DNA of 28,433 bases, taken from a virus. Shown piece after piece: positions 4,555 through 26,016 of this stretch (position 1 is its first letter; every line of letters begins with the position of its first letter). The notes beneath the pieces were generated by a model, which was not told the DNA's origin, did not search any database, and saw only the letters and a list, made by a program, of their open reading frames with translations. The stretch spans positions 1-28,433 of IMG/VR virus record IMGVR_UViG_3300025120_000395, one strand, 5' to 3'. Position numbers and translations under genes: made by a program.

Positions 4555-4986
4555 ATGACATATGAAGTATCGGGTGTACCTCACTCAGACATACACAGAA
4601 TAATGCCACTGATAGATAAGTATTTAAATAATGTTATTCCGTATACAGGTGGCAGATACGAGAAACAAGATATAATAGAAGGAATAGAAAGTAAGCTATT
4701 TGATTTATGGATACCAATAAACACAACAACAACTGATGTTGATGGGGTGGTTATTACACATTTTACAGTGTATCCTAGAAAGAAAGTTTTCACTATTTTA
4801 TTGTGTTGTGGTGATCACTTAAACAAATGGTATCCTTTAATGTTTGATATGTTGTATAAGTTTGCAAATTTAAATCAATGTGACCTTGCTGAAGTAGTAG
4901 GAAGAAAAGGTTGGGTACGTAGATTAAAAGATGACGGTTTTAAACAAAGTGTTTGGATAGTAGAAAGAGAATTTAAAAATGGGTAG
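4555..4986 (+). CDS. GNAT-like / T7 gp13-like internal virion protein
   Basis: This 143-residue protein has the layout of the small acetyltransferase-like proteins placed just before the ejection-protein genes in T7-like and marine podoviruses: an N-terminal helix pair (HRIMPLIDKYL, then DIIEGIESKLFDLWIPI), a central beta pair (VVITHFTVYPRKKVFTILLCCGD), a helix (WYPLMFDMLYKFANLNQCD) and a closing strand containing GRKGWVRRLKDDGF. In GNAT folds the beta pair followed by CCGD and the helix would sit at the cofactor site, but the classical Q/RxxGxG/A loop is not seen, so acetyltransferase activity is doubtful. Its last 8 bases overlap the next gene. By position it resembles T7 gene 13, whose product is needed for virion assembly or infectivity. 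Fold assignment is inference from pattern memory. Confidence 0.6.
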   Translation: MTYEVSGVPHSDIHRIMPLIDKYLNNVIPYTGGRYEKQDIIEGIESKLFDLWIPINTTTTDVDGVVITHFTVYPRKKVFTILLCCGDHLNKWYPLMFDMLYKFANLNQCDLAEVVGRKGWVRRLKDDGFKQSVWIVEREFKNG

Positions 4987-7225
4987 TTCAAGATCAGCAC
5001 CAACAAGTACAGTCACAAGTCAGGTAAGGCAGGAATATCCTGATTTCTTTCAGCCTTATCTTGAAGATGTATTAGAAAGCTCACAGGAACAGTTTGCAAG
5101 AGAGTATGATCCTTTTCCTGAAGCAAGGTTAGTTGAAACACCACAAGCTAGAACAGATGCTTTAACCTCACTACAGGATACAGGTTTGGCAAGCATGAGT
5201 CAGCAAGGATATGCAGACGCTATTCAAGGAACTAAGTCTGCATCAACTGCTTTTCCAGAAACTGATCTATCTTCTTATATGAATCCTTATCAAGATCTTG
5301 TAACAGATCAGTTACTAAGGAACGCAAAAGAAAGAAGAGATATTAAACGTAAATCTATAGGAGATCAAGCTGCACGAGTAGGTGCGTTTGGTGGTAGCAG
5401 ACAAGCAGTAACTGAATCATTGTTTGATAGAGACACGCAAAGAGAACTCACTGATCTAGAAGAACGTAGTCAAATGGCTAACTTTGCTAATGCTCTAGCA
5501 GCATCTTCAGCAGATAAAGAAAGAGGACTGAAGGGATCACAGCAGTTAGCAGGATTAAGTCAAGCGCAACAAGCAGCTTTAACAAGTGGATTAGTGGGTG
5601 TCGAGAAGGCAGCAACAGCAGAGCAAGCTATTGATCAGCAAATCAGAGATGTAGCTTTTCAAGAGTTTATGGATCAGTCAAACTTTGATCAACAAAAACT
5701 CGCTGAGTACTCTGCTATCATTCGTGGTGCAACTCCACCTGCTAATCAATTTATTACTAAAGAAACAAGCACACCTAAAAGTGGTCTACAGCAAGCAGCA
5801 GGTTTAGGATCTATTGCTAGTGGTTTATTCGGTGGTGGTGGCGGAGGCGGTGGATTGTTTGGTGCATCGGGAGGAGTTGCTGGTTATAAACAAGGAGGAA
5901 CAACAGAGGATGTAGTTGATTCTGCTATTAAGAAGTTAGCAGGTATAGGAAGTGGTAATATAGAAATGGGATCAGGACAACGGGCATTAAAAAATGCTAT
6001 TGCTCCTAAAAAAGACGAAATCAAATTCATGGAAGAAGAGATAACAGTTGAAGGAGGTGGTCTACAAAATCTCATGCCGAATGATGGAGGTCAGTTTGAT
6101 ATGGCTACATTAGTTGAGCAAGGAAATGAAGACATGATGATGCCACAACAGCAACAGCTTGCATACGGTGGTGTTCCGGGACAACCATACACAGAAGACA
6201 TCGGTATGATGGGTGGACTTGCTTCAGTTGCTGGACCTCAGATGAGGTTTGCAGAGGGTGATAGAGTTGCTGATTCAAGAACTCTTATGGAAGATATGAG
6301 AAAAATACAAGAATTTAATAAGAAAAAAAATATACAAAGAAAAGCGGAACAAGTTGAACAGGCAAAGAAGTTTAGTAAAGAATTTAGTGAAACAGGTAAA
6401 AAGTTTGATAAGGCAGTTATAAACACAGCAGGAGATATGGTGTCTGGAGAATTTATAGGTATTCCAACACTTTCAAAATATCTTACAGGAAGTGATTTTA
6501 ATTTAGGTAAAAAAATTGTTAGTGGTTACGAGACACAAGATGAACGAGAAAAAAGAATAAGGGAAAATAGACCAAAAGAAATAGAAACAGAAGTAGAAGA
6601 TGTAACAGTTAATGATTCTGGTTTTGGAGATGATGTAAATCAAACTGTTTTTGGTGAGATGGAAATGGAGACTCAACCACAAGCACCTCAAAAGAAACCA
6701 GAAGTAAAAACACCTCTACCGACAAAGAAAAAACCAGTTGGAGAATCAGAATTAGCTAAATACTTAAAGACATTAGATAGAGATCAAGGACTGTCTAGTA
6801 GAGATAAAGTTGCAATGGGTCTTGCTTTGTTAACAGGTAGAGAAGAAGGTTTGACACAAGCATCACGAGCAGTTGCTGCTGGTACAGATCCAGCATCTGA
6901 TCTTAAAGTAGAGTTAGATGCTATAAAAGCATCAAACGAAACAGAAGCTAACAAAGCTAAACTTGCTGAAGCATTACGTAAACGTGCTGCTGATATAGCT
7001 AAAAAAACTTTTGAGGCAAAAAAGAGTGGTCTTGAGATAGTAAAACTTCAACAACGAATACAAGAAGCAGATGATCAAGCAGCTATAAAACTATGGGAAT
7101 CTGCTGGCATAATAGGTCAAAATAATTTATTAAAGATAACAAAAGAAGAGAGAAAAACTATGACTCCTGAGTTATATGCTCAAAAAATAAGGCAAGCAGT
7201 AGCTAGTTTAAAACCAAGAAGATAA
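4979..7225 (+). CDS. Internal virion-like protein with glycine run and coiled-coil C-terminus (748 aa)
   Basis: The family is not one I can name with certainty; position between the gp13-like protein and the giant ejection protein suggests an internal core or ejection component. Residues 1-270 are helical and rich in Gln, Ala and Asp (SSQEQFAREYDPFPEARL; DRDTQRELTDLEERSQMANFANALAASS). A run of Gly around 284-291 marks a hinge, followed by three short aromatic-GG or EGD patches (GYKQGG, LAYGGVPGQP, MRFAEGDRV). Residues 420-560 are highly charged and 650-745 form a long Lys/Glu/Ala-rich helix likely to be coiled coil. It starts inside the previous gene (overlap 4979-4986), which favours translational coupling. 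No enzyme motif is visible. Confidence 0.65.
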   Translation: MGSSRSAPTSTVTSQVRQEYPDFFQPYLEDVLESSQEQFAREYDPFPEARLVETPQARTDALTSLQDTGLASMSQQGYADAIQGTKSASTAFPETDLSSYMNPYQDLVTDQLLRNAKERRDIKRKSIGDQAARVGAFGGSRQAVTESLFDRDTQRELTDLEERSQMANFANALAASSADKERGLKGSQQLAGLSQAQQAALTSGLVGVEKAATAEQAIDQQIRDVAFQEFMDQSNFDQQKLAEYSAIIRGATPPANQFITKETSTPKSGLQQAAGLGSIASGLFGGGGGGGGLFGASGGVAGYKQGGTTEDVVDSAIKKLAGIGSGNIEMGSGQRALKNAIAPKKDEIKFMEEEITVEGGGLQNLMPNDGGQFDMATLVEQGNEDMMMPQQQQLAYGGVPGQPYTEDIGMMGGLASVAGPQMRFAEGDRVADSRTLMEDMRKIQEFNKKKNIQRKAEQVEQAKKFSKEFSETGKKFDKAVINTAGDMVSGEFIGIPTLSKYLTGSDFNLGKKIVSGYETQDEREKRIRENRPKEIETEVEDVTVNDSGFGDDVNQTVFGEMEMETQPQAPQKKPEVKTPLPTKKKPVGESELAKYLKTLDRDQGLSSRDKVAMGLALLTGREEGLTQASRAVAAGTDPASDLKVELDAIKASNETEANKAKLAEALRKRAADIAKKTFEAKKSGLEIVKLQQRIQEADDQAAIKLWESAGIIGQNNLLKITKEERKTMTPELYAQKIRQAVASLKPRR

Positions 7226-7239
7226 AAGAGTAAAACAGT

Positions 7240-10200
7240 ATGGCTCTTCCTCCACAGCAGCAACCACAACAACAGGTAGAATCTTTTGATGATCTTGTAC
7301 CTGACAGTGGTCCTCAAAACTTTGATGAACTCATAGCACTTCAGCAACAAGAGTTAGCTGCTCCTGATGATATCGATAGACAGATAAATGAACAGGTTGC
7401 TTATCTAGATAATCTTTTATATGGAGCACAGCAACGAAGAGAAGAAGCTCCAATCAAAACTCCAGAGCCAGTTCCTGATCGTGGTTTGTTTATGGAAGCA
7501 CTTGCAGGTATAGGATCAGGTGCTTTAGGTACACTTGGTTCAGGGTTATCAGGTATAGAAAGAATAGCAGAACGGCTCGAAATTGATCCAACTGGAGATG
7601 ATGCAGGTTGGTTTAGACAAGCTGGTGAAGCTATGAAAAAAGGTGCTGAAGAAATAAAGGCATCTCCTGATAAAGAAATTTATTTTAAAACATTTAATGC
7701 TTTTGGTTCTATATTAGGATTTGCTGCTCCTGCTGTAGTAGCTGCGCCTTTTAGTGGTATTGCTGCGTTAGGAATAGGAGCAACACTTGCTGCTGGAACT
7801 GGTGCAGATGAAGCCTATGATAGAGCTATAGAAGGAAAGGCAACTGAAGAACAGATAGATCAGTCTGTTGGTCTTGGTACTGCATTAGGTTTAACAGAGA
7901 TACTTGCACCAATTAAGATTATAAAAAGTCTTGGAAAGGTTATGCCTGACTGGGACTTTACAAGAAAGTTTATTAATAAAGATGGTCTTAATACAACATC
8001 TACTGAAGAGTTAATTAATAAGACAACTAAAGAAGCACAGTCTGGTAGATTAAATAAAATACTTAGTGTTAACGATACAGGTATAAAAGAGTTTGCAAAA
8101 CGTGTTGGCAGTACGGTAGGTCTTGAGGGGTCACAAGAGTTTCTTGCAGCAGTTGGTCAGAACGCTATTGAAAGATACATATATAAACCTGATGCAGACT
8201 TGTTAAATGCAGATGCTATCGAAGAAGGTCTGTATGGTGGTGGTGCTGGTGGTATGTTGCAAGGAATTGTTTCTACGTTTTCCATGCGTAAGTCTAGACA
8301 GTATCGAAAAAAGATGGAGAAGTTTTTAGAGTCAGACGAGTACGGTCAAATAAGAACAGAAGCAGAACAAGCATCAGATCAAATTGAAGAAGCAGATGCA
8401 CGTATAAAAGAACTACAAGAAAAAGATGAGGTATTCTTTCCATCAGCTAAGAGCACAAAAAAACAAATAGAGAATGCTGTTAGAGATAGAGAGAAAGCAG
8501 GAATCAGATTACAAAGAGCAAATGCATTAGCAGAGAAAGCTCTTAATGATAAGGTCTATACGTCTAATGAAGTTCTAAGTTATTTATCTGGTCAAGTAGA
8601 TGAGGATGGTAGATCTCTTTACTCACCAGAATATTTAAAGTCATTGCAAAAGTCTGATAGAGAGAAGGGAACTTCTTATCTTAAAGCTGTGTATAGTGGA
8701 CACGTACAAGACACTAGAACAAAACACGAGCAAGAATCAGAAGAGAAGTTCTTAAATACAATTAACACAACAGCTACTATTGAAAACGGAATACCTGTAT
8801 ATAATACAATTGATGAAGTAGAACAGGTAAAAGAAGGACGAACTCCTAAACAGTTTGAAGTAGAAGTAGATGCCAGAATAGAAGACAGCATTAAACATCC
8901 TGATAATATTGAGGTACAGGATGAAAAACTTATTTTAAGAAAGGGAGGTTTAAGTGTTCAGTCTGTTAATAACTTATTTGATAATTTTTCTATAGAAGAT
9001 AGTAATAATAAATATTTAAATAGTATTAAGTATATACTTCTTGCTGATAAAAAAAACATAAAGCAAGTAACTGAGATAATAAACTCAGATAAAAAAATAG
9101 GTCTAAAGAAAAACAATATAAACAACTTAGCTAAGAAGATAAGAAAAGACGCAGATGCAGTTATAGAAGCAAAGAAGGTAGCAGACCAGAAAAAAACTCA
9201 AGCTGAGAAACAAGAAGATATTATTGCAGAAACAAAATCTAAAGAAGAACAAGATAGATTAGCAAAAGAAAGTGATAACTATTTAACAGAACAAAACAAA
9301 AGTCTTGAAGGAAATGAAGAACTTGGTGATGTTCAAACAGAAGAAGGTGTTGATTCAAACACAGCACAACAAGAGATAACAGATGTTCAAAACACTGAAG
9401 CAAGTGATATAGAGAAGAATGCAGAAATATTTAGTGATGATGTAAGTAGAGAAGAACTTGCTGTAGAAACAAAACCTATAGAAGAAGAAATAAGTACAGC
9501 AGTAACACTAATAGATATACCAGATAAGAATGTAATAGAAGCTAAAGATCAAGACAATATTAAAGATGATATTGAAGGTAGGTTATTTAGTGTTATAGAA
9601 GAAAGTTATACAGATATTGATGGAGCATATGGTGAGGTATCTGCCGAATTAGTAGACTATGGATTTGATGCATCTGATATTGTTGCCGATATAAAACAAT
9701 TTGGATCTGGATATACAACCTCTCTTGATGAAAGTTTAAAGTCAATACCTGAGAATAGAAATGATTTACGAAAAGCAGCAAGTGCGTTAACTAATAGAAT
9801 AAAGAAAAGAATTAGAGATGATAAGATAGAGAATAAAGATTTAGATGTTATTAGAGATGCTTCTAATGCTGAGATAGCAGAGACTTATCTTTTTAGTATA
9901 AGTGAAAAAGAATCTATAGAAAGTATAGAGAATGAAGTTGATCCTATTCTTTCTGAAATGGGTCCAGTTAAGTATAGAGAGTTAGCAAACGCAGTAGCAA
10001 CAATGCTAGGCGTAGCTGGCTCATCTAAAATTGTTGATAGAGTTTTAACAAAAGGTTCAAACGGTGGTCGTGAATATATTTATAAATTTAAAAATCTTAA
10101 CGACAAAGATATATCTGTTGTGTTTAAAAATATACCTAATCAAACAGAAGGCAATGTAAAAGGTGGTTTATTTAATCTTAAAGATGGAACAATAACCATT

Positions 10201-13200
10201 GATCCAAATGTTTTAACATGGTCTGACGCACTAGGAGTAACAGCACATGAATCCTTCCATGCTGCTAAAAGACTTTTGTTTAAAAACACAGAAGTAGATA
10301 GCGTGTTTGAAACTGTTTTAAGTCGTGACATGGCTAGAAAAAATGGATGGAAACAAAATAAGTATGAAGAATTTTTTGATAAAGTATATAAGAAAGAAGA
10401 AGGAGCTACTAAAGAAGTAGAAGACGCAAGGCTAGAAAAAATAGGAAAACTTCTAAACGAAGAAGCACAAGCATACCTATATGAGCAATGGTACAAAGGA
10501 GAAAACATAGTTGGATTAACTCCTCCTGCTCGTAATTTGTTCAGTATTATGAGAGACTTTTTTAGACAGTTTAATAACTATATAAGAAGACAAGTTCTTA
10601 ATCAGGACGTAGAAGTAAAAGAAGATTTAAATAAAGTTGTGTTAGGTCAGATGAGAGATATGGCTAGTGGTGAGTTAGCTAGAAGAGCAGGAGCATTACC
10701 TCCAGCCAATGCAGCAAACTTAGCTGCTGAACACATACCAGAAAATACCGAATCTATTTTAAAAGCAACATGGGCAGAGATTACTCGTGGTGCTGTTCCT
10801 GTAGGTAAAGATAAAAACGGTAATGATATTATGAGAGACATTACTGTGTTAGGTAGAATCTTTAGCCACTTGTCTGCTGTGTCAGAAAGAAGTGAATCAT
10901 TTAAAAAGTTTTATAATAAACTTCAAGATCGTATTGCATTACGTAACTCTATAAAACAAACAGCAGAAATATTTTTAGAAAAGATAGGACCATATTCAGG
11001 TATCTTTAGATTAAGTAATTCTGATTTTGTTGAAGTACAAAAAATAAGTTTATTTGCAGATGAAGCAAACCAAGATCCTGTGTTTGAGAATGAAGGAACT
11101 GAACAAGCAACAGCTACTGTTACAATTACTGAATCAACTTTAGATATGATAACTAAAAGATATCAAACACTTTCTAATTTTTATAGTGATCTAGGAATAA
11201 AAGAAGGAGACGTTACATCCTTTCAAGATGGTGATGTTATAAAGTATCAAATGAGACTTGAAGATCCTAGACTAGCTAATGCTTATGCAGGTTCTCATAC
11301 AGCAATTAAACATGTAGGTGAAAATGTTTATGCTGGATTAATACATAACTTTCTAAACCAACCTGCTTTAAAAGAAACTAGTATAAAGATAAGAACAAAA
11401 GGAGTAGACGGTTCTGGTAAGAATGCTTATCGAACAGCGATTAATGATTTTAAAGAATTAAAAAAAGAATTAAAGGCTAATGGTTTATTAGATTCAGAAG
11501 GTAAACTAGACTCAGCAGCATATGAAAACTATCAGAAAGAAATGAGTGAGCAAGGAGTTCCTGCTGAAGATCGTGTTTTTGGTGGTCTTTCTTTTGGAGA
11601 TAAAGGAGGTCTTAATATAGGAGCAGATAAAGTATGGACAGTTCTCGAAGCTATTACTGCTGATAAAAGAAGTGGATACTTTCCTCACTATAGATATGGA
11701 TCTCACGTTGCTGCTGTGTACGACATATCTGGTAACTTAGTAAGAATGGAATCTGCTGAATCAGCAATGGCTGAACGACTAGGCAATGTACCTGTAATAG
11801 GAGATAGGGCAAGACAAGGTGTTCTTAGGAAACAAGATGAGTTAGTTAAAGAATTACAAACACAGTTTGGTCCTAACTATACAGTCGAGCCTTTACAGTT
11901 AACAATAGAAGCAGCAAGAATTGGTAACGATAGATCAAAGAAAACTATTATAGATGCGTTGGGTAAGTTAAATGTTTTGTCTGAAGCATATACCAGAAGA
12001 TCAACAGACCAAGAAAAAATACAAAGAGTAAATACATTTGTTGATATGATTAAAGCAGAAGCTATAGGAAGCAGAGTAGACTCTTTAGTTAGAGATAGGA
12101 AAAATGTTCCCGGTTATATTAGTAAAAGAAATAATGATGGCAGATACTACAAGCAAGCAATACAAAGATACGTAGATGAAGGATCTAACACTGCGTCTTC
12201 TTTGTTTGAAGAACCAGAATTACTAGAAGCAAAAGAAGAAATAGCACAGTCTGTTCAAGGTGGAATAGACTCAAATCTTTATAGACTTGCAGATAAGACT
12301 TTTGATTATGTAAACAATCCAAACAACGAAGCAACTTTTATACGAAGCTATGCATTCCATGCGTATCTAGGATTTAACTTTTCTTCTGCTGTTGTTAACT
12401 TAACTCAAACAGTACAAGCAACTTATCCTATTCTTTCTTCTATTACAGGAATGACTAAAGGAACAACAGGTCTTATTAAAGCTTCCGCAGATGCAGTAAA
12501 ACTGTCTAAACATATGACCTTTGCAGAAAAAGGAGATGCTCCTAGATTAGGTAAGTATGGTTTTGAGTTTTTTACAACAGAGGTTGTAGATGGAGAACCA
12601 ACAGTTGTTGTTGATCCAAAACGAAAACCATCTTGGATGGCAGATGATGAGTTTCAAATGTTAGCTAAGTTATTTCAAAAAGGAACTATACAACCAATTC
12701 AAAATATGGATCTAGGTGCAGGCATACTATCACAAAGTTTAGATAAACCAGTCGCACGTACACTAGCTGACTCATCTGGTTTTGCATTTGGATATGTAGA
12801 GAACTTAAACAGAATAACAGCAGCTTTATCTTTCTATCGTGCTGCTAAAAAAGATGCACAAAATAATAATAGAGATAAGTTTAATGCGTTTGCTTCAAGC
12901 ACTCGTTTCTCTGAGCCTCTTGTAGATGATAGTGGTAACAGTATAGAGACTGATACTGAAGAAGGTATAAATGCTTTTGCTGAACGCATGGCAGAGATGG
13001 GTGTAGAGAAGACACAGTTTTTTATGGGAAAAGAAAATAGACCAACTCTATTTCGTGGTCCTGTTATGAGTGCAGTAACACAGTTTCAAAGTTTCTTATT
13101 TCAAATGGTTGGTACATATGCAACAGCATTTAGAACATCAGTTGGTGCTAAGTTAGATCAGTATCCACCAGAAGAAGCAAAGCTCCTTGCAAGTATGGCA

Positions 13201-14970: not shown

Positions 14971-17370
14971 ATGAGTATCGTAACTGAAAATCCTATAAAC
15001 GTTGTAACAAGTTTCCCAGTTAAAGCATGGGATCTTTATGCTAAAGAGTTCCTAACTTCTTTTGATAAGAAGTGGAATAAAAATATACACCTAGCTGTGT
15101 ACTATGACGGTGGTGATCTACCAGAAGATAAAGTAGAGAGTGATCGTATCTCCTATTTTAAATTAGAGAAAGATAAAGAATGGGCTGAGTTCCAAGATAC
15201 ATATGGTGAGAACAATGGTAGACCAGACGGTTATGATGAACTAGATGAATGGCCTCCTAAGAACTTTGTTCAGAGTGACACATACAATTACAGAATGGAT
15301 GCTGCAAGGTTCTCTCATAAAGTTTTTGCTATGACAGGTGAAGCTCAAAGGTTAATGCACAAGGCTCATAGTGATACAGCTAAAGCTGGTATAAACCCTC
15401 TTCATGCAAGCATAGGACATATGGTTTGGATTGATTCTGATTCAATAACTAAACAAGACCTAGCATATGAAAAGGCAGAAGAAATAATATGTCAGGGAAA
15501 TAATATTACGATGACTGACATAAGTCATTTAGGTCGTACTGCAATTGACTATAGCTGTACATCTTTTATTTCTTTTTACTTAACAAGCCCCCGTGTTCAA
15601 GAGTTTATAAATGATTTCAGAGGGATCTATGTAAGTGGTGAAGTATTTGGATACAGAGAGTGGACTGATGCTTTTGTATTTACTCGTTTACTTACAATGT
15701 ATGCCGTTCACGGTCTAGAGATTTGTAATCTATCTGAAGGATGTAAAGATCTAAATGCTTTTGAGTACTCTCCTATCGGTAAATACATGGTACATAATAA
15801 AGGTAATCAAAAAATTACAGGTGAACTACCGCCAGATGTAGAAGGACCGCAACGTAACTCAATGATACCTCAGATTGTTACTCACTATAAGTTTAATAAT
15901 CTTCTTGAGATAGGTACATGGAGTGGTGCAAGAGCTATCAAGATGGCTACTGCTTTGTTTCAATCAGGTATTGATAAGGTTCACTATAGTGGTTTTGATT
16001 TATTTGAAACAGCTACGCCTGAAGATGATGAGGTAGAAAAAAATGTTAAGAAGCATTACAGTGAGGAGGAAGTCAAAGGTTATCTAAATAATTTCTCAAA
16101 GGCTGTGGCTAAAGATGGTAAAGAATTTACCTACGCTATATTCAAAGGTAATACTCGTGACACCTTAAAGATATTAAAGAATAAAGATTACTGTAATACT
16201 CATAACATTAAGCCACAGTTTGCATACATTGATGGCGGTCATAGTGTTGAAACAATCAGATCAGATTACGAAGCACTCAAGCATCTGCCTGTTGTTTTGT
16301 TTGATGATTTCTACACGCCAGACCCAGCTACTCAAGAAGGTCCAGACGTTACCAAGTATGGATGTAATGAAGTCTTTGATAAAGACATAGATAAGAAATT
16401 CACAAAAGCTGTGTTGTCTACAAGTGATAGAGTTATGGGTGGTGGTATAACAAACTTAGCTATTGTTGTAAGTGATGACAGTCTAGGACTACCTCCAAAG
16501 ATTACTCCCAACCGTGTTCCTATTAAAGTAAGTCCTCAAGACTGTATGCCTAAAGAACATATAAAAAATAATATTGAAACGAACACACCAAAGATGGATC
16601 GTTGGATAAACGAGCGTGGTCTGATTAACTCAGAGGATATAGTTGTTGCATCTGCTGGTCCTTCTCTAGTTAAGTATCTTGATGAGATAAAAGAACGGCA
16701 GAAGAAAGGTGCGAAGGTTATATGTGTTAAGCATTCTCTTCCAACTTTAATTAAGAATGGAATCATACCACACGGTTGTGTGATATTAGATCCTAGATCT
16801 ATTGAAGGCGAATCGACTCACGGTGTTTTACGTAAAAGTTTATTTGAGAATATACCTAAAGAAACAATTATGTTTGTAGCAAGTATGACAGACACGACTG
16901 TATTAGATTACGTCTTAACTAAAACAGATAACATCGTAGGGTTCCATGCATTCTCTAACGCTGTATCTAAGTATGAGTTTCTAAACGGTAAGTATTTAAT
17001 AACAGGTGGGACATGTGCTGCAACTAGAGCAGTAGGTATCTTTCATACACTTGGATTTAGAAACTTTGATCTGTATGGTTTTGATTCGTGTCTAACAGAA
17101 AAGCCAAAAAACTATAAAGATAAAAGAGAAGACGGTGCTCCGTTGTTTATGAATGTCGGTGTAGAGAATGGAGATCCAGATGAAGAAAAGTTCTGGACTA
17201 CAGGCGAACTACTGGCACTGGCTCAAGATGTAGAAGCTATGTTAGATAGTGATGTACTTGATCTTAACATTGATATACACTGTGAAGGACTTGTTAATGC
17301 GGTCTGGAAGGATCGTCTACGAAAAGGATATAAGAGAAGACATTACAATGAGATAATAAAAGGAGATTAA
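14971..17370 (+). CDS. Three-domain fusion: glycosyltransferase, SAM methyltransferase, DUF115/MptE-like
   Basis: Three modules can be read in 799 residues. About 1-275 is a GT-A-like domain with HMVWIDSDS (D155-x-D157 as DXD). About 295-505 is a class I methyltransferase of the Methyltransf_24 type: SAM-binding LEIGTWSGA (312-320), an acidic GFDLFE after strand 2 (341-346), and FAYIDGGHS with the following DYEAL helix (418-436), then VVLFDDF. About 545-775 is a DUF115 (6-hydroxymethylpterin pyrophosphokinase MptE-like) domain with VASAGPSL (559-566), VICVKHSLP and ITGGTCAATRA with FDLYGFDSC; that family also includes the Maf flagellin-glycosylation proteins. The start has AGGA 7 bases upstream. 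Adjacent to a separate glycosyltransferase and under the same promoter, it likely builds and methylates a glycan. The substrate is unknown; domain limits are estimates. Confidence 0.8.
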   Translation: MSIVTENPINVVTSFPVKAWDLYAKEFLTSFDKKWNKNIHLAVYYDGGDLPEDKVESDRISYFKLEKDKEWAEFQDTYGENNGRPDGYDELDEWPPKNFVQSDTYNYRMDAARFSHKVFAMTGEAQRLMHKAHSDTAKAGINPLHASIGHMVWIDSDSITKQDLAYEKAEEIICQGNNITMTDISHLGRTAIDYSCTSFISFYLTSPRVQEFINDFRGIYVSGEVFGYREWTDAFVFTRLLTMYAVHGLEICNLSEGCKDLNAFEYSPIGKYMVHNKGNQKITGELPPDVEGPQRNSMIPQIVTHYKFNNLLEIGTWSGARAIKMATALFQSGIDKVHYSGFDLFETATPEDDEVEKNVKKHYSEEEVKGYLNNFSKAVAKDGKEFTYAIFKGNTRDTLKILKNKDYCNTHNIKPQFAYIDGGHSVETIRSDYEALKHLPVVLFDDFYTPDPATQEGPDVTKYGCNEVFDKDIDKKFTKAVLSTSDRVMGGGITNLAIVVSDDSLGLPPKITPNRVPIKVSPQDCMPKEHIKNNIETNTPKMDRWINERGLINSEDIVVASAGPSLVKYLDEIKERQKKGAKVICVKHSLPTLIKNGIIPHGCVILDPRSIEGESTHGVLRKSLFENIPKETIMFVASMTDTTVLDYVLTKTDNIVGFHAFSNAVSKYEFLNGKYLITGGTCAATRAVGIFHTLGFRNFDLYGFDSCLTEKPKNYKDKREDGAPLFMNVGVENGDPDEEKFWTTGELLALAQDVEAMLDSDVLDLNIDIHCEGLVNAVWKDRLRKGYKRRHYNEIIKGD

Positions 17371-17680: not shown

Positions 17681-18097
17681 ATGTTAGGATTATTAGGATC
17701 TCTTTTACCAGTAGCGACAAGTATTATCGACAAGGTAGTGCCTGATAAGAATGCTGCAAAAAAAGCAAAGCTTGATATGGAGAAAGAGTTAACAACTGCT
17801 TTCAATAAAGCTAACCTTGCTCAAATAGAAACCAATAAGATTCAAGCATCTCATCCCTCCATTTTCGTAAGTGGAGCTAGACCAGCTATCATGTGGATAT
17901 GTGCGTTTGGTTTAGGGTGGCAGTTTGTATTTCAACCTGTAGCAGTTTGGGTTCTCGCGTTAACTGCGAGTGATGTTGTTCTTCCTATTATTGAGACAGA
18001 AGGATTGATGTCGTTAACACTTGCTCTCTTAGGATTGGGTGGAATGCGTAGCTTTGAAAAATCAAAAGGTGTTCAAAGAAACAATATGAAACGGTGA
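17681..18097 (+). CDS. Holin, GTA-type 3TM family
   Basis: The 138-residue protein has an N-terminal amphipathic/hydrophobic segment (MLGLLGSLLPVATSIIDKVVP), a charged linker with helical KKAKLDMEKELTTAFNKANLAQIETNKIQ, then HPSIFVSGARPAIMW leading into two membrane helices (about 75-95 and 105-125) and a basic tail. The linker-SGARPxxMW pattern is diagnostic of the GTA_holin_3TM family (holin of 3 TMs for gene-transfer release). Holins open the inner membrane at the end of infection so that endolysin reaches the cell wall. The gene is the last of the + arm; the start codon directly follows the previous stop with GGAG about 9 bases before. No endolysin gene is visible beside it, so the partner enzyme must lie elsewhere in the genome. 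Confidence 0.8.
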   Translation: MLGLLGSLLPVATSIIDKVVPDKNAAKKAKLDMEKELTTAFNKANLAQIETNKIQASHPSIFVSGARPAIMWICAFGLGWQFVFQPVAVWVLALTASDVVLPIIETEGLMSLTLALLGLGGMRSFEKSKGVQRNNMKR

Positions 18098-24080: not shown

Positions 24081-25724
24081 TTAATGTGTCTCTGCCCAGT
24101 TCGATCCAATCTTTGCTTCACTATCAAGAGGGCATCTGACAGCTAAACTTTTCTCTGTATCTTTCATTGCTATCTTAGTGATAGAACAGAACTCTTCTGC
24201 ATCATCTTTGTGTACCTCAAACTGTACCTCATCATGTATATTGGCTACAGGTTTTGCATCTAAACCTTTTGCCTTTACATATTTAATTATGTGAACAAGC
24301 CACTCCTTACAGATGATAGCACCTGCTCCCTGTAGTAGCGTGTTAACTGCGGAGTGAGAAGACTTGATATGAAAGTACCTACCATCTAATCCACGAACCA
24401 TTCCAGTTGATTCAGCTTCGATGATTGTCTTCTCTCTGAACCTGTTTAGCTTTGGCATGGAACTTAGAAACTTATTGATAAGTCTCTGTCCTGCATTGGC
24501 ATCTTTACCTACAACAGAACCTATCTTGGTTGCACCAGCACCGTAAAGAAATGCATAGATAAAAGTCTTTGCTTGATCTCTTGTCTCAAGTCCAGCCATC
24601 CTTTGATTAGCTGAGTGTATGTCACCGTTAAGTATCTCGTGAATATAATCATCATCGTTAATGTAGTGAGCTAAACACCTGAGTTCTAAACCAGATGCAT
24701 CCGCACCAACCAGTCTATGTGTTAGTGGGTTCTCAATTGTCCAACAAGACCTACACTCATTACCGTAAGGAGAATAAACAGCAGGTATCTGTGCCATGTT
24801 AGGAGAGTTATGACTCATCCTGTTTGTTACTGCACCTATTGTACGTACATCACCATGTACTCTGCCTGTCTCTTGATTGATTGCTTTGACCCATGAAGAT
24901 GCTTGAGAGCTACGCTTACGTAACAACATAAACCTTTGTATGTCTCTTGCTTCAGGTAGGTCACAGTTTTCTAGCGTACCTTCATTGACAACAGGTAGCC
25001 CTGTCTTCTCAGTAAATTGTGTAGGCTTCCATCCTTTCTTCATAAGACGATCACCTATCTGCTGTCTGCTCTGAGGATTGAACGGTATTATTTTTGTCTT
25101 TGTCTTCATCTCTTTGATCGTAGGATCAAATGTATTAACTAACTTCTCTTCAAGTGTTCCTGCTTCATCGTCAAGCATAGCAAGAAGACCAAGTACTTTC
25201 TCTTGATCAATAAAGAAACCATTATTCTTTTGTATATCAAGTAGTCTTCTAACTGTATGCTCAAGCTTAACAGAATGTTTAGACCATCCACGCATCGCGT
25301 CACGTAGATGTAGATAAAGTTTCTCAGTAACCTCAACATCTCTGATACAATACTTGTGCATCTCAGGGGTGTAGTGTTCAAACGAGTCGGGTTGTTTCAT
25401 CTTAGGAAACTTTAGGATGTCACCCCAGTTACCAAGACTGTTACCACCCTCTCGTATTGGATTGTTTAACTGAGCAACTATCAATGTATCTAATATCTGT
25501 GCATATGGATACTTGATGCCCCAAAGTTTTTCTAACTGAGGGAGATCAAATGATATACCATTGTGCATAATAAGAGTATCAGTTCCATCAAGGAGCGACT
25601 GTAGTTTGTCCTTATCTCCTTCACGAAAAGAATACAACTCACCTGTGTTTATGTTCTTACAAACAACAAGGTGAACACACTTGGCATCCAGTCCATCTGT
25701 TTCTATGTCAAGTACTAGTTTCAA
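24081..25724 (-). CDS. Family A DNA polymerase with 3'-5' exonuclease (T7-like)
   Basis: The 547-residue enzyme replicates the phage genome. Exonuclease motifs: LDIETDG (D6, E8), HNGISFDLPQL (54-64) and YCIRDVEVT (125-133). Polymerase motifs: GADASGLELR (A, catalytic D342), RDQAKTFIYAFLYG (B, R382, K386 and Y390) and ANIHDEVQFEV (C, H497-D498-E499). Tyr390 corresponds to T7 Y526 and E. coli Pol I F762. At 547 residues it is shorter than the 704-residue T7 enzyme, and the thioredoxin-binding insert seems missing or reduced. The start codon is TTG at 25724: an in-frame TAA lies 9 bases upstream and the exonuclease motif begins at residue 5, so no other start is possible. The start overlaps the HNH gene by 17 bases. 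Confidence 0.95.
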   Translation of the reverse strand: MKLVLDIETDGLDAKCVHLVVCKNINTGELYSFREGDKDKLQSLLDGTDTLIMHNGISFDLPQLEKLWGIKYPYAQILDTLIVAQLNNPIREGGNSLGNWGDILKFPKMKQPDSFEHYTPEMHKYCIRDVEVTEKLYLHLRDAMRGWSKHSVKLEHTVRRLLDIQKNNGFFIDQEKVLGLLAMLDDEAGTLEEKLVNTFDPTIKEMKTKTKIIPFNPQSRQQIGDRLMKKGWKPTQFTEKTGLPVVNEGTLENCDLPEARDIQRFMLLRKRSSQASSWVKAINQETGRVHGDVRTIGAVTNRMSHNSPNMAQIPAVYSPYGNECRSCWTIENPLTHRLVGADASGLELRCLAHYINDDDYIHEILNGDIHSANQRMAGLETRDQAKTFIYAFLYGAGATKIGSVVGKDANAGQRLINKFLSSMPKLNRFREKTIIEAESTGMVRGLDGRYFHIKSSHSAVNTLLQGAGAIICKEWLVHIIKYVKAKGLDAKPVANIHDEVQFEVHKDDAEEFCSITKIAMKDTEKSLAVRCPLDSEAKIGSNWAETH

Positions 25725-26016
25725 GTCTCTTTATCCTATCGTGCTCAATCCTATGACAGTTAGCGCATAGCATGAGACATTTGTCTAGTTCTTTTTTTAC
25801 TTTATCCCAAGAACAAGTAATGAACTGTCCTATGTTAAAGTCTTTTTCAGAAGGATCTTTATGATGAAACTCAAACACATCAAGAACCTCAAAGCACCAG
25901 CCACAGTGATGACACTTTGATCCCATATACTCAACGGCCTTTTCTTTTGATAACTTTCTTTTGTTTCTAAACTCTACTCTTCTATCTCTATATGGTCTTT
26001 TATTGAATGGATACAT
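25708..26016 (-). CDS. Free-standing HNH endonuclease
   Basis: The 102-residue protein has a basic N-terminus (FNKRPYRDRRVEFRNKRK), a zinc pair CHHC (35-38), the HNH core FEFHHKDPSEKDF and a second zinc pair with the last His (LMLCANCHRIEH). This is the complete HNH fold of phage-borne homing or nicking nucleases. It sits exactly between primase-helicase and DNA polymerase, a favourite insertion site for homing endonucleases in T7-like phages. It has GGAG 7 bases before the ATG, 4 bases after the primase-helicase stop, and its 3' end contains the polymerase start. An alternative role in packaging or DNA repair is possible, but the position favours a mobile or nicking nuclease. Confidence 0.85.
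   Translation of the reverse strand: MYPFNKRPYRDRRVEFRNKRKLSKEKAVEYMGSKCHHCGWCFEVLDVFEFHHKDPSEKDFNIGQFITCSWDKVKKELDKCLMLCANCHRIEHDRIKRLETST

Follow-up and report, generated by a model that had tools for sequence, protein, structure and literature searches.

A conserved phage protein joining predicted glycosyltransferase, O-methyltransferase and MptE-like domains, and its possible role in glycan assembly

The 28,433-base virus sequence IMGVR_UViG_3300025120_000395 (an IMG/VR virus record, analysed as a whole and referred to here as the window) carries a gene of 799 codons that starts with ATG and runs in one unbroken frame. Its product joins, in a single chain, a predicted glycosyltransferase (GT) domain of the GT-A type, an O-methyltransferase (MT) and an MptE-like (DUF115) domain. 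Judged from sequence, this triple fusion is a conserved family under purifying selection, and a second glycosyltransferase gene, gt2, lies immediately upstream of it. In the interpretation that we favour, with a probability of roughly 0.6, a soluble, cytoplasmic, trifunctional enzyme and gt2 would together build a short, phage-specified, O-methylated oligosaccharide, for which a virion protein is the likeliest acceptor. Sequence and predicted structure are the basis of all results presented here.

The fusion as a conserved family

Relatives of the fusion were collected by scans of viral contigs, which yielded 16 and later 78 loci, and by a scan with the GT domain, which yielded 193 relatives, 80 of them kept. 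Domain order was assigned by searching the open reading frames (ORFs) of all fetched loci with profiles based on alignments made for this work. The order GT-MT-DUF115 was found in 145 ORFs, 92 of them distinct over their C-terminal 500 residues; these family counts depend on scans seeded with patterns and on metagenome contigs, some of which are redundant. By single linkage, the 92 distinct fusions collapsed into 43, 16 and 8 groups at identity thresholds of 90%, 70% and 50%, respectively. The ratio of nonsynonymous to synonymous substitution (dN/dS), calculated against close relatives with unsaturated synonymous change only, was 0.06-0.13 and was alike across the three domains. Together, the 92 distinct fused sequences and the low dN/dS ruled out chance or mis-assembly as the origin of the fusion.

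The uncultured Caudovirales protein A0A6J7X5Q0 (714 aa, BFVD) aligned with the fusion at 28% identity over 792 columns (E=2.6e-61) and apparently has the same three-domain architecture, under the database name 'Methyltransferase domain containing protein'. A PHROGs search with the fusion gave no match, and a direct sequence search of the whole protein against the PDB returned nothing useful. No relatives came from the first profile scan of genome contigs; a later scan with a broader alignment gave five (L093-L097), along with many methyltransferase-only matches. The fusion was not found described in the open-licence literature on DUF115, MptE-like proteins, pelagiphages and phage glycosylation, which is weak evidence of novelty.

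Three predicted domains and their invariant residues

The domains were examined by profile searches and in an AlphaFold2 model built from a 30-member family alignment (mean predicted local distance difference test score, pLDDT, 83; predicted template modelling score, pTM, 0.45), which was compared with the PDB using Foldseek. The ORF and the motifs DXD (residues 155-157), LEIGTWSGA and IDGGHS lie where the initial annotation had placed them. Its three domain calls also hold, the methyltransferase and DUF115 by Pfam matches above the cut-offs as well as by fold, and the GT-A domain by fold. Feature positions are collected in Table 1.

Within domain 2, the Pfam profile Methyltransf_24 matched residues 312-439 (E=2e-6; 29 bits against a cut-off of 26.3). 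All 30 members of the family alignment matched this profile (E<=0.1), and 11 of the 30, the window protein not among them, matched TylF. The best PDB match of the domain 2 profile was MycF, mycinamicin 3''-O-methyltransferase (E=0.006), with the DDY segment aligned; by fold, the matches were O-methyltransferases of the TomG/COMT type (∼3e-5). As in TylF/MycF, a class I methyltransferase core with motif I is combined with metal-type residues in a D...DD arrangement; unlike those enzymes, domain 2 is embedded between two transferases. The motif I residues E313, G315, T316 and G319 were unchanged in all 64 distinct members, as were D445 and D446 of the candidate metal triad, and D421 was retained in 63 of the 64. 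Domain 2 is therefore probably a metal-dependent sugar O-methyltransferase of the Methyltransf_24/TylF-like type, which uses S-adenosylmethionine (SAM). Stand-alone relatives of this domain (25-32% identity) were seen in many Pelagibacteraceae chromosomes (L102, L119-L121 and many of L123-L172) and are a possible cellular source of it.

Domain 3 matched PF01973 (MptE-like, the DUF115/Maf_flag10 family) at residues 533-710 with E=1.2e-21 and 77.6 bits against a cut-off of 34.6. The match was present in 28 of the 30 aligned members, the remaining two being without the domain. Residues S561, G563, K587, H588, D607, R609, S615, T616 and H617 were unchanged in 58/58 distinct members with sequence in this region. 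The top PDB match by fold was the Magnetospirillum Maf protein 5mu5 (E=5.7e-9, a match that may span more than domain 3), ahead of the Methanocaldococcus HPPK (MjHPPK) 8sd5 at 2.2e-6. The domain 3 profile gave the same ranking (0.034 for Maf against 0.85 for HPPK), so the domain is not closer to MptE/archaeal HPPK than to Maf. The only NCBIfam name returned for this region was PseD (NF050051, FlagModPseD; E=1.1e-8), scoring 34.2 bits against a cut-off of 670.

The relation to Maf flagellin glycosylation proteins proposed in the initial annotation thus stands as a likeness of fold, with a common MptE-like/Maf_flag10 domain and weak profile similarity, and does not extend to membership of Maf/PseD. 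In Maf, the Maf_flag10 domain is followed by a C-terminal helical bundle domain and preceded by a degenerate Rossmann domain whose methyltransferase-like motifs are weak (PMC11339370). This Rossmann-then-Maf_flag10 layout is reminiscent of the MT-DUF115 part of the fusion. The fusion differs in having an intact methyltransferase and an added GT-A domain, and in having no C-terminal helical domain of the flagellin/chaperone-like kind, for which the 89 residues that remain after the Pfam match, modelled as mixed strands and helices, leave no room. The linker between the MT and DUF115 domains (∼residues 518-554, 16522-16632), V-x-PQDCMPK-x-HI-x-NN, was strikingly conserved; its weak profile match to AcrIIA7 (PDB 8kbi, E=0.19) was judged to be at chance level and was not used.

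For domain 1, the separate searches suggested by the initial annotation gave a divided answer, negative by profile and positive by fold. Residues 1-290 matched no Pfam glycosyltransferase profile, either in the window protein or in the 30 aligned members, and the GT-domain profile returned nothing significant from PDB sequences. Foldseek matched the modelled domain to bovine alpha-1,3-galactosyltransferase 1g93 (GT6; E 6.5e-7) and to LARGE1 and COLGALT1 (∼1e-5). A conserved DXD motif, as in metal-dependent GT-A enzymes, accompanies this fold: D155 and D157 were unchanged in 61/61 distinct members with sequence there. H275, G278 and K281 were unchanged in 64/64, and we take this H-x-x-G-x-x-K segment to resemble the HxxGxxK of GT8-type enzymes. 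The domain thus has the GT-A fold, the DXD and a C-terminal HxxGxxK-like motif in common with retaining enzymes of the GT8/GT6 type (LgtC, the WbbM N-domain, alpha-1,3-GalT), at an identity of ∼10%. Stand-alone homologues of domain 1 were found in MW202713.1 and as Mosig_00189. Given the invariant active-site residues and the low dN/dS, all three active sites of the fusion look maintained.

Table 1. Positions of the fusion, its domains and motifs, and associated genes (window coordinates unless a contig is named)
Feature	Size or residues	Position	Strand	Evidence or remark
Trifunctional fusion, GT-A / O-methyltransferase / MptE-like (DUF115), predicted	799 aa	14971..17370	+	
Domain 1, predicted GT-A glycosyltransferase	1-288	14971..15834	+	Foldseek; retaining-type folds match best
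DXD motif, D155-S156-D157	155-157	15433..15441	+	just past predicted strand 150-154
H275-x-x-G278-x-x-K281	275-281	15793..15813	+	invariant in family alignment
Domain 2, predicted class I SAM-dependent O-methyltransferase	292-505	15844..16485	+	Methyltransf_24, MycF, TomG/COMT fold
SAM-binding motif I, LEIGTWSGA	312-320	15904..15930	+	conserved
IDGGHS (420-425) to DD (445-446), candidate metal triad D421/D445/D446	420-446	16228..16308	+	conserved
Domain 3, MptE-like/DUF115, Maf/sialyltransferase-type fold	513-799	16507..17367	+	Pfam match at 16567-17100
Partner glycosyltransferase gt2, GT8-like GT-A fold	265 aa	14172..14969	+	phrog_28018, AlphaFold2, Foldseek
Probable large internal virion/ejection protein	2297 aa	7240..14133	+	phrog_11358 (unknown), E=8e-28
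Conserved protein, function unknown	102 aa	17372..17680	+	cluster c21; downstream of fusion in closest relatives
Holin (lysis)		17681..18097	+	GTA_holin_3TM, E=5e-16; phrog_3427
GT29-family gene, marine-type phage contig L083		7346-7996		Glyco_transf_29
GT29-family gene, marine-type phage contig L087		4208-4852		Glyco_transf_29

The partner gene gt2 and the modularity of the cassette

The neighbouring second glycosyltransferase noted in the initial annotation proved real. The stop codon of gt2 ends 1 nt ahead of the start of the fusion gene, and its product matched phrog_28018 in PHROGs (E=5e-70). The AlphaFold2 model of this protein (pLDDT 91) has a GT8-type fold, with Foldseek matches to WbbM (6u4b), the GT8 enzyme 3tzt, LgtC and the PBCV-1 protein A064R-D1 (2p6w). 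Its invariant residues include D102/D104 and H217 with GGPW. No transmembrane segments were found in the fusion or in gt2. In the neighbourhood survey of the 92 distinct fusions, gt2 was located directly upstream in every one of the 89 with sequence at that position. The divergences of the two proteins were also correlated (r=0.93 for 81 pairs; 0/2000 permutations).

The components of the cassette also occur split, permuted and substituted. In L094, a contig binned to Myxococcales that has terminase-like and SU10-type portal genes, the parts are encoded by separate genes for gt2, GT and MT-DUF115. In the 92-kb viral contig L090, the MptE-like protein, MT, gt2 and GT each have their own ORF within a more extensive glycan cluster. 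Pelagibacter phage Mosig has its stand-alone GT homologue, Mosig_00189, adjoining a gt2 homologue (Mosig_00188) and methyltransferases. Fusions in the reverse order, MT-GT (∼499 aa), were found in two contigs of alphaproteobacterial metagenome-assembled genomes (L096, 5992-7488; L097, 1396-2895).

In five further contigs (L083-L087), GT-MT occurs together with gt2 and lacks DUF115. The gene directly upstream of GT-MT in these contigs belongs to the Glyco_transf_29 (sialyltransferase) family, with Pfam matches above the cut-off (E=7e-7 in L083 and 3e-6 in L087). It looks as though DUF115 has been replaced there by a sialyltransferase-type enzyme, and this presence of a GT29-like gene where DUF115 is missing is the best hint that domain 3 transfers a sugar. 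Such splitting, swapping and substitution of parts is the strongest functional argument for the cassette.

Enough sequence was available for 69 distinct fusions, and 27 of these have a gene for GDP-mannose 4,6-dehydratase (Gmd; Pfam E=4e-141) within 1 kb on the downstream side, in 25 cases on the same strand; no Gmd was found in the window. Gmd produces GDP-4-keto-6-deoxymannose, from which GDP-rhamnose and GDP-fucose are made, and at least one of the sugars transferred in the relatives that carry it may therefore be a 6-deoxyhexose. The nonulosonic-type donor suggested in the initial annotation is plausible for the DUF115 step in view of the GT29-like gene beside the DUF115-less fusions. This donor is unsupported by pathway genes, since none for nonulosonic-acid synthesis was seen in the scanned genes of the window and Gmd is the sole recurrent donor gene. 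The broader proposal of a self-contained cassette for glycan assembly and methylation is well supported by the conservation of the fusion, its split and permuted versions and the neighbouring sugar genes.

Other genes were noted at these loci. The L090 cluster (4951-10552) comprises MptE-like, Coq4-like, Methyltransf_23, a GT29-like relative, Methyltransf_24, two gt2 homologues, the stand-alone GT and an FkbM methyltransferase. L096 carries, by eye, housekeeping genes of the iron-sulphur-cluster type. A metallophosphoesterase gene (cluster c11) follows the fusion in ∼22 relatives of one lineage, for example at 10172-10915 in L077.

Proposed function and phage setting

Enzyme activity, reaction order, donors, timing and acceptor are what we infer for the cassette as follows. 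The fusion would be a soluble, cytoplasmic enzyme acting with gt2 late in infection. In the most likely order, gt2 and/or the GT-A domain would add the first sugars, the DUF115 domain, of Maf/sialyltransferase type, would add another (up to three sugars in all), and the TylF-like domain would O-methylate one sugar and so cap the chain. The donors would be made by the host, with a GDP-6-deoxyhexose used for at least one step in the relatives with Gmd. With the activities in one chain, the glycan could be handed from one active site to the next as it grows, in the manner of chlorovirus A064R. The acceptor would be a virion protein, modified before assembly while still in the cytoplasm. A virion protein is favoured as the acceptor because the proteins have no transmembrane segments, because the cassette is located in the window between virion-protein genes and the holin gene, and because of the A064R precedent; we hold this preference at about even odds, with a host surface glycan as the main rival. 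The order of genes in the window is also consistent with late expression of the cassette.

A064R of PBCV-1 is a protein of 638 aa that contains two rhamnosyltransferases and a 2-O-methyltransferase and finishes the capsid N-glycan (PMC9614988). Like the fusion, it is viral and consists of a single chain of three domains of ∼200 or more residues, with two glycosyltransferases and one SAM-dependent O-methyltransferase, and the structure of its first domain (2p6w) is a fold match to gt2. The resemblance is one of fold kinship only: A064R has the order GT-GT-MT, which the fusion (GT-MT-DUF115) does not reproduce, lacks an MptE-like domain and comes from a eukaryotic virus. By analogy, the fusion may work like A064R without being A064R. 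Among phages, mycobacteriophages use glycosyltransferases of their own to glycosylate the capsid and the tail tube (PMC12363180).

Several observations count against this interpretation. Domain 1 is assigned to GT-A by its modelled fold and by no sequence profile. The domains are individually well predicted, while their mutual arrangement is not (pTM 0.45), and the same applies to any channelling between them. A late position is not universal, as the cassette of another lineage is flanked by the genes for ribonucleotide reductase and the small terminase. The 2297-aa protein encoded next to the cassette was rejected as the acceptor, since it looks like an ejection protein inside the virion and not like one exposed at its surface. 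In addition, the glycosyltransferases of pelagimyophages (SAR11 myophages) are mostly GT8 and have been argued to modify the O-chain of host lipopolysaccharide (LPS) (PMC7029224).

This last point favours an acceptor on the host surface, a glycan of the LPS/O-chain or the capsule, with sugars added to nascent chains at the cytoplasmic face and capped by methylation, so that the receptor is changed and superinfection or re-adsorption of progeny is blocked. The fold matches of gt2 to the LPS-type enzymes LgtC and WbbM point the same way, and some O-antigens do end in methyl caps. Against it, the scanned genes of the window included no recognisable membrane partner of the GtrA/GtrB type and no recognisable flippase, no transmembrane segment was found in either the fusion or gt2, and a position beside lysis genes is late for exclusion. 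We consider modification of the host surface a real but less likely alternative to that of a virion protein; with no GtrA/GtrB match in the genes scanned, the cassette also does not fit the Gtr type of O-antigen seroconversion cassette. Two readings in which no oligosaccharide is made appear far less probable. If domain 3 were an MptE-type pterin pyrophosphokinase, as the Pfam family name and the MjHPPK fold match might imply, the fusion would serve cofactor or nucleotide metabolism and have no glycan role. We regard this as very improbable, given the better fold and profile matches to Maf, the PseD match, the invariable association with two glycosyltransferases and the frequent one with Gmd, and the substitution by a GT29-like gene in some relatives. 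The slightest chance is given to modification of phage DNA with glycosylated or methylated hypermodified bases. Phage glycosyltransferases can glucosylate DNA, as in T4; however, the scanned genes of the window included neither a base hydroxymethylase nor a base-modifying partner, the methyltransferase resembles TylF/MycF, sugar O-methyltransferases of the small-molecule type, and the Gmd and GT29-like partners point to oligosaccharides.

Should decoration of the virion by the fusion and gt2 prove correct, an entire class of marine phages would make a capped glycan of its own, using an enzyme that works like an assembly line, and current views of virion surface chemistry, of adsorption and of competition among phages at sea would change. 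To our knowledge, virion glycosylation by phage enzymes is established mainly in mycobacteriophages, with single glycosyltransferases. It is a tentative suggestion, which we hold with less than even confidence, that a widespread marine phage group decorates its virions by means of a single chain in which a protein glycosyltransferase related to Maf is joined to a sugar O-methyltransferase and a second glycosyltransferase. The product would be a methylated, possibly nonulosonic or 6-deoxyhexose glycan, and the system a prokaryotic counterpart of A064R. If the host envelope is the target, the cassette would be a compact tool for receptor remodelling. The versions in which parts are split, permuted or substituted by GT29 also suggest that the DUF115/MptE-like domains of phages, which are poorly understood, act as transferases, and gt2 with the fusion forms a two-gene unit small enough for expression and assay.

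The window derives from a tailed phage with T7-like replication, as shown by its genes for DNA polymerase A, a T7-type primase-helicase, ribonucleotide reductase, DUF3310, an endonuclease, an exonuclease, a head-and-packaging virion protein and a holin. End repeats were not found in it, and it is thus possibly a fragment. The primase-helicase is nearest to those of the Pelagibacter phages HTVC115P (51% identity) and HTVC103P (47%), which makes a SAR11-like marine host plausible. The 2297-aa protein, in which no Pfam domain was found, is similar to a protein from Pseudomonas phage Epa33 that carries the annotation 'structural protein'. An HNH endonuclease gene (25708-26016, minus strand), a possible homing insertion, is located between the primase-helicase gene and that of the DNA polymerase, whose listed ORF opens with TTG.

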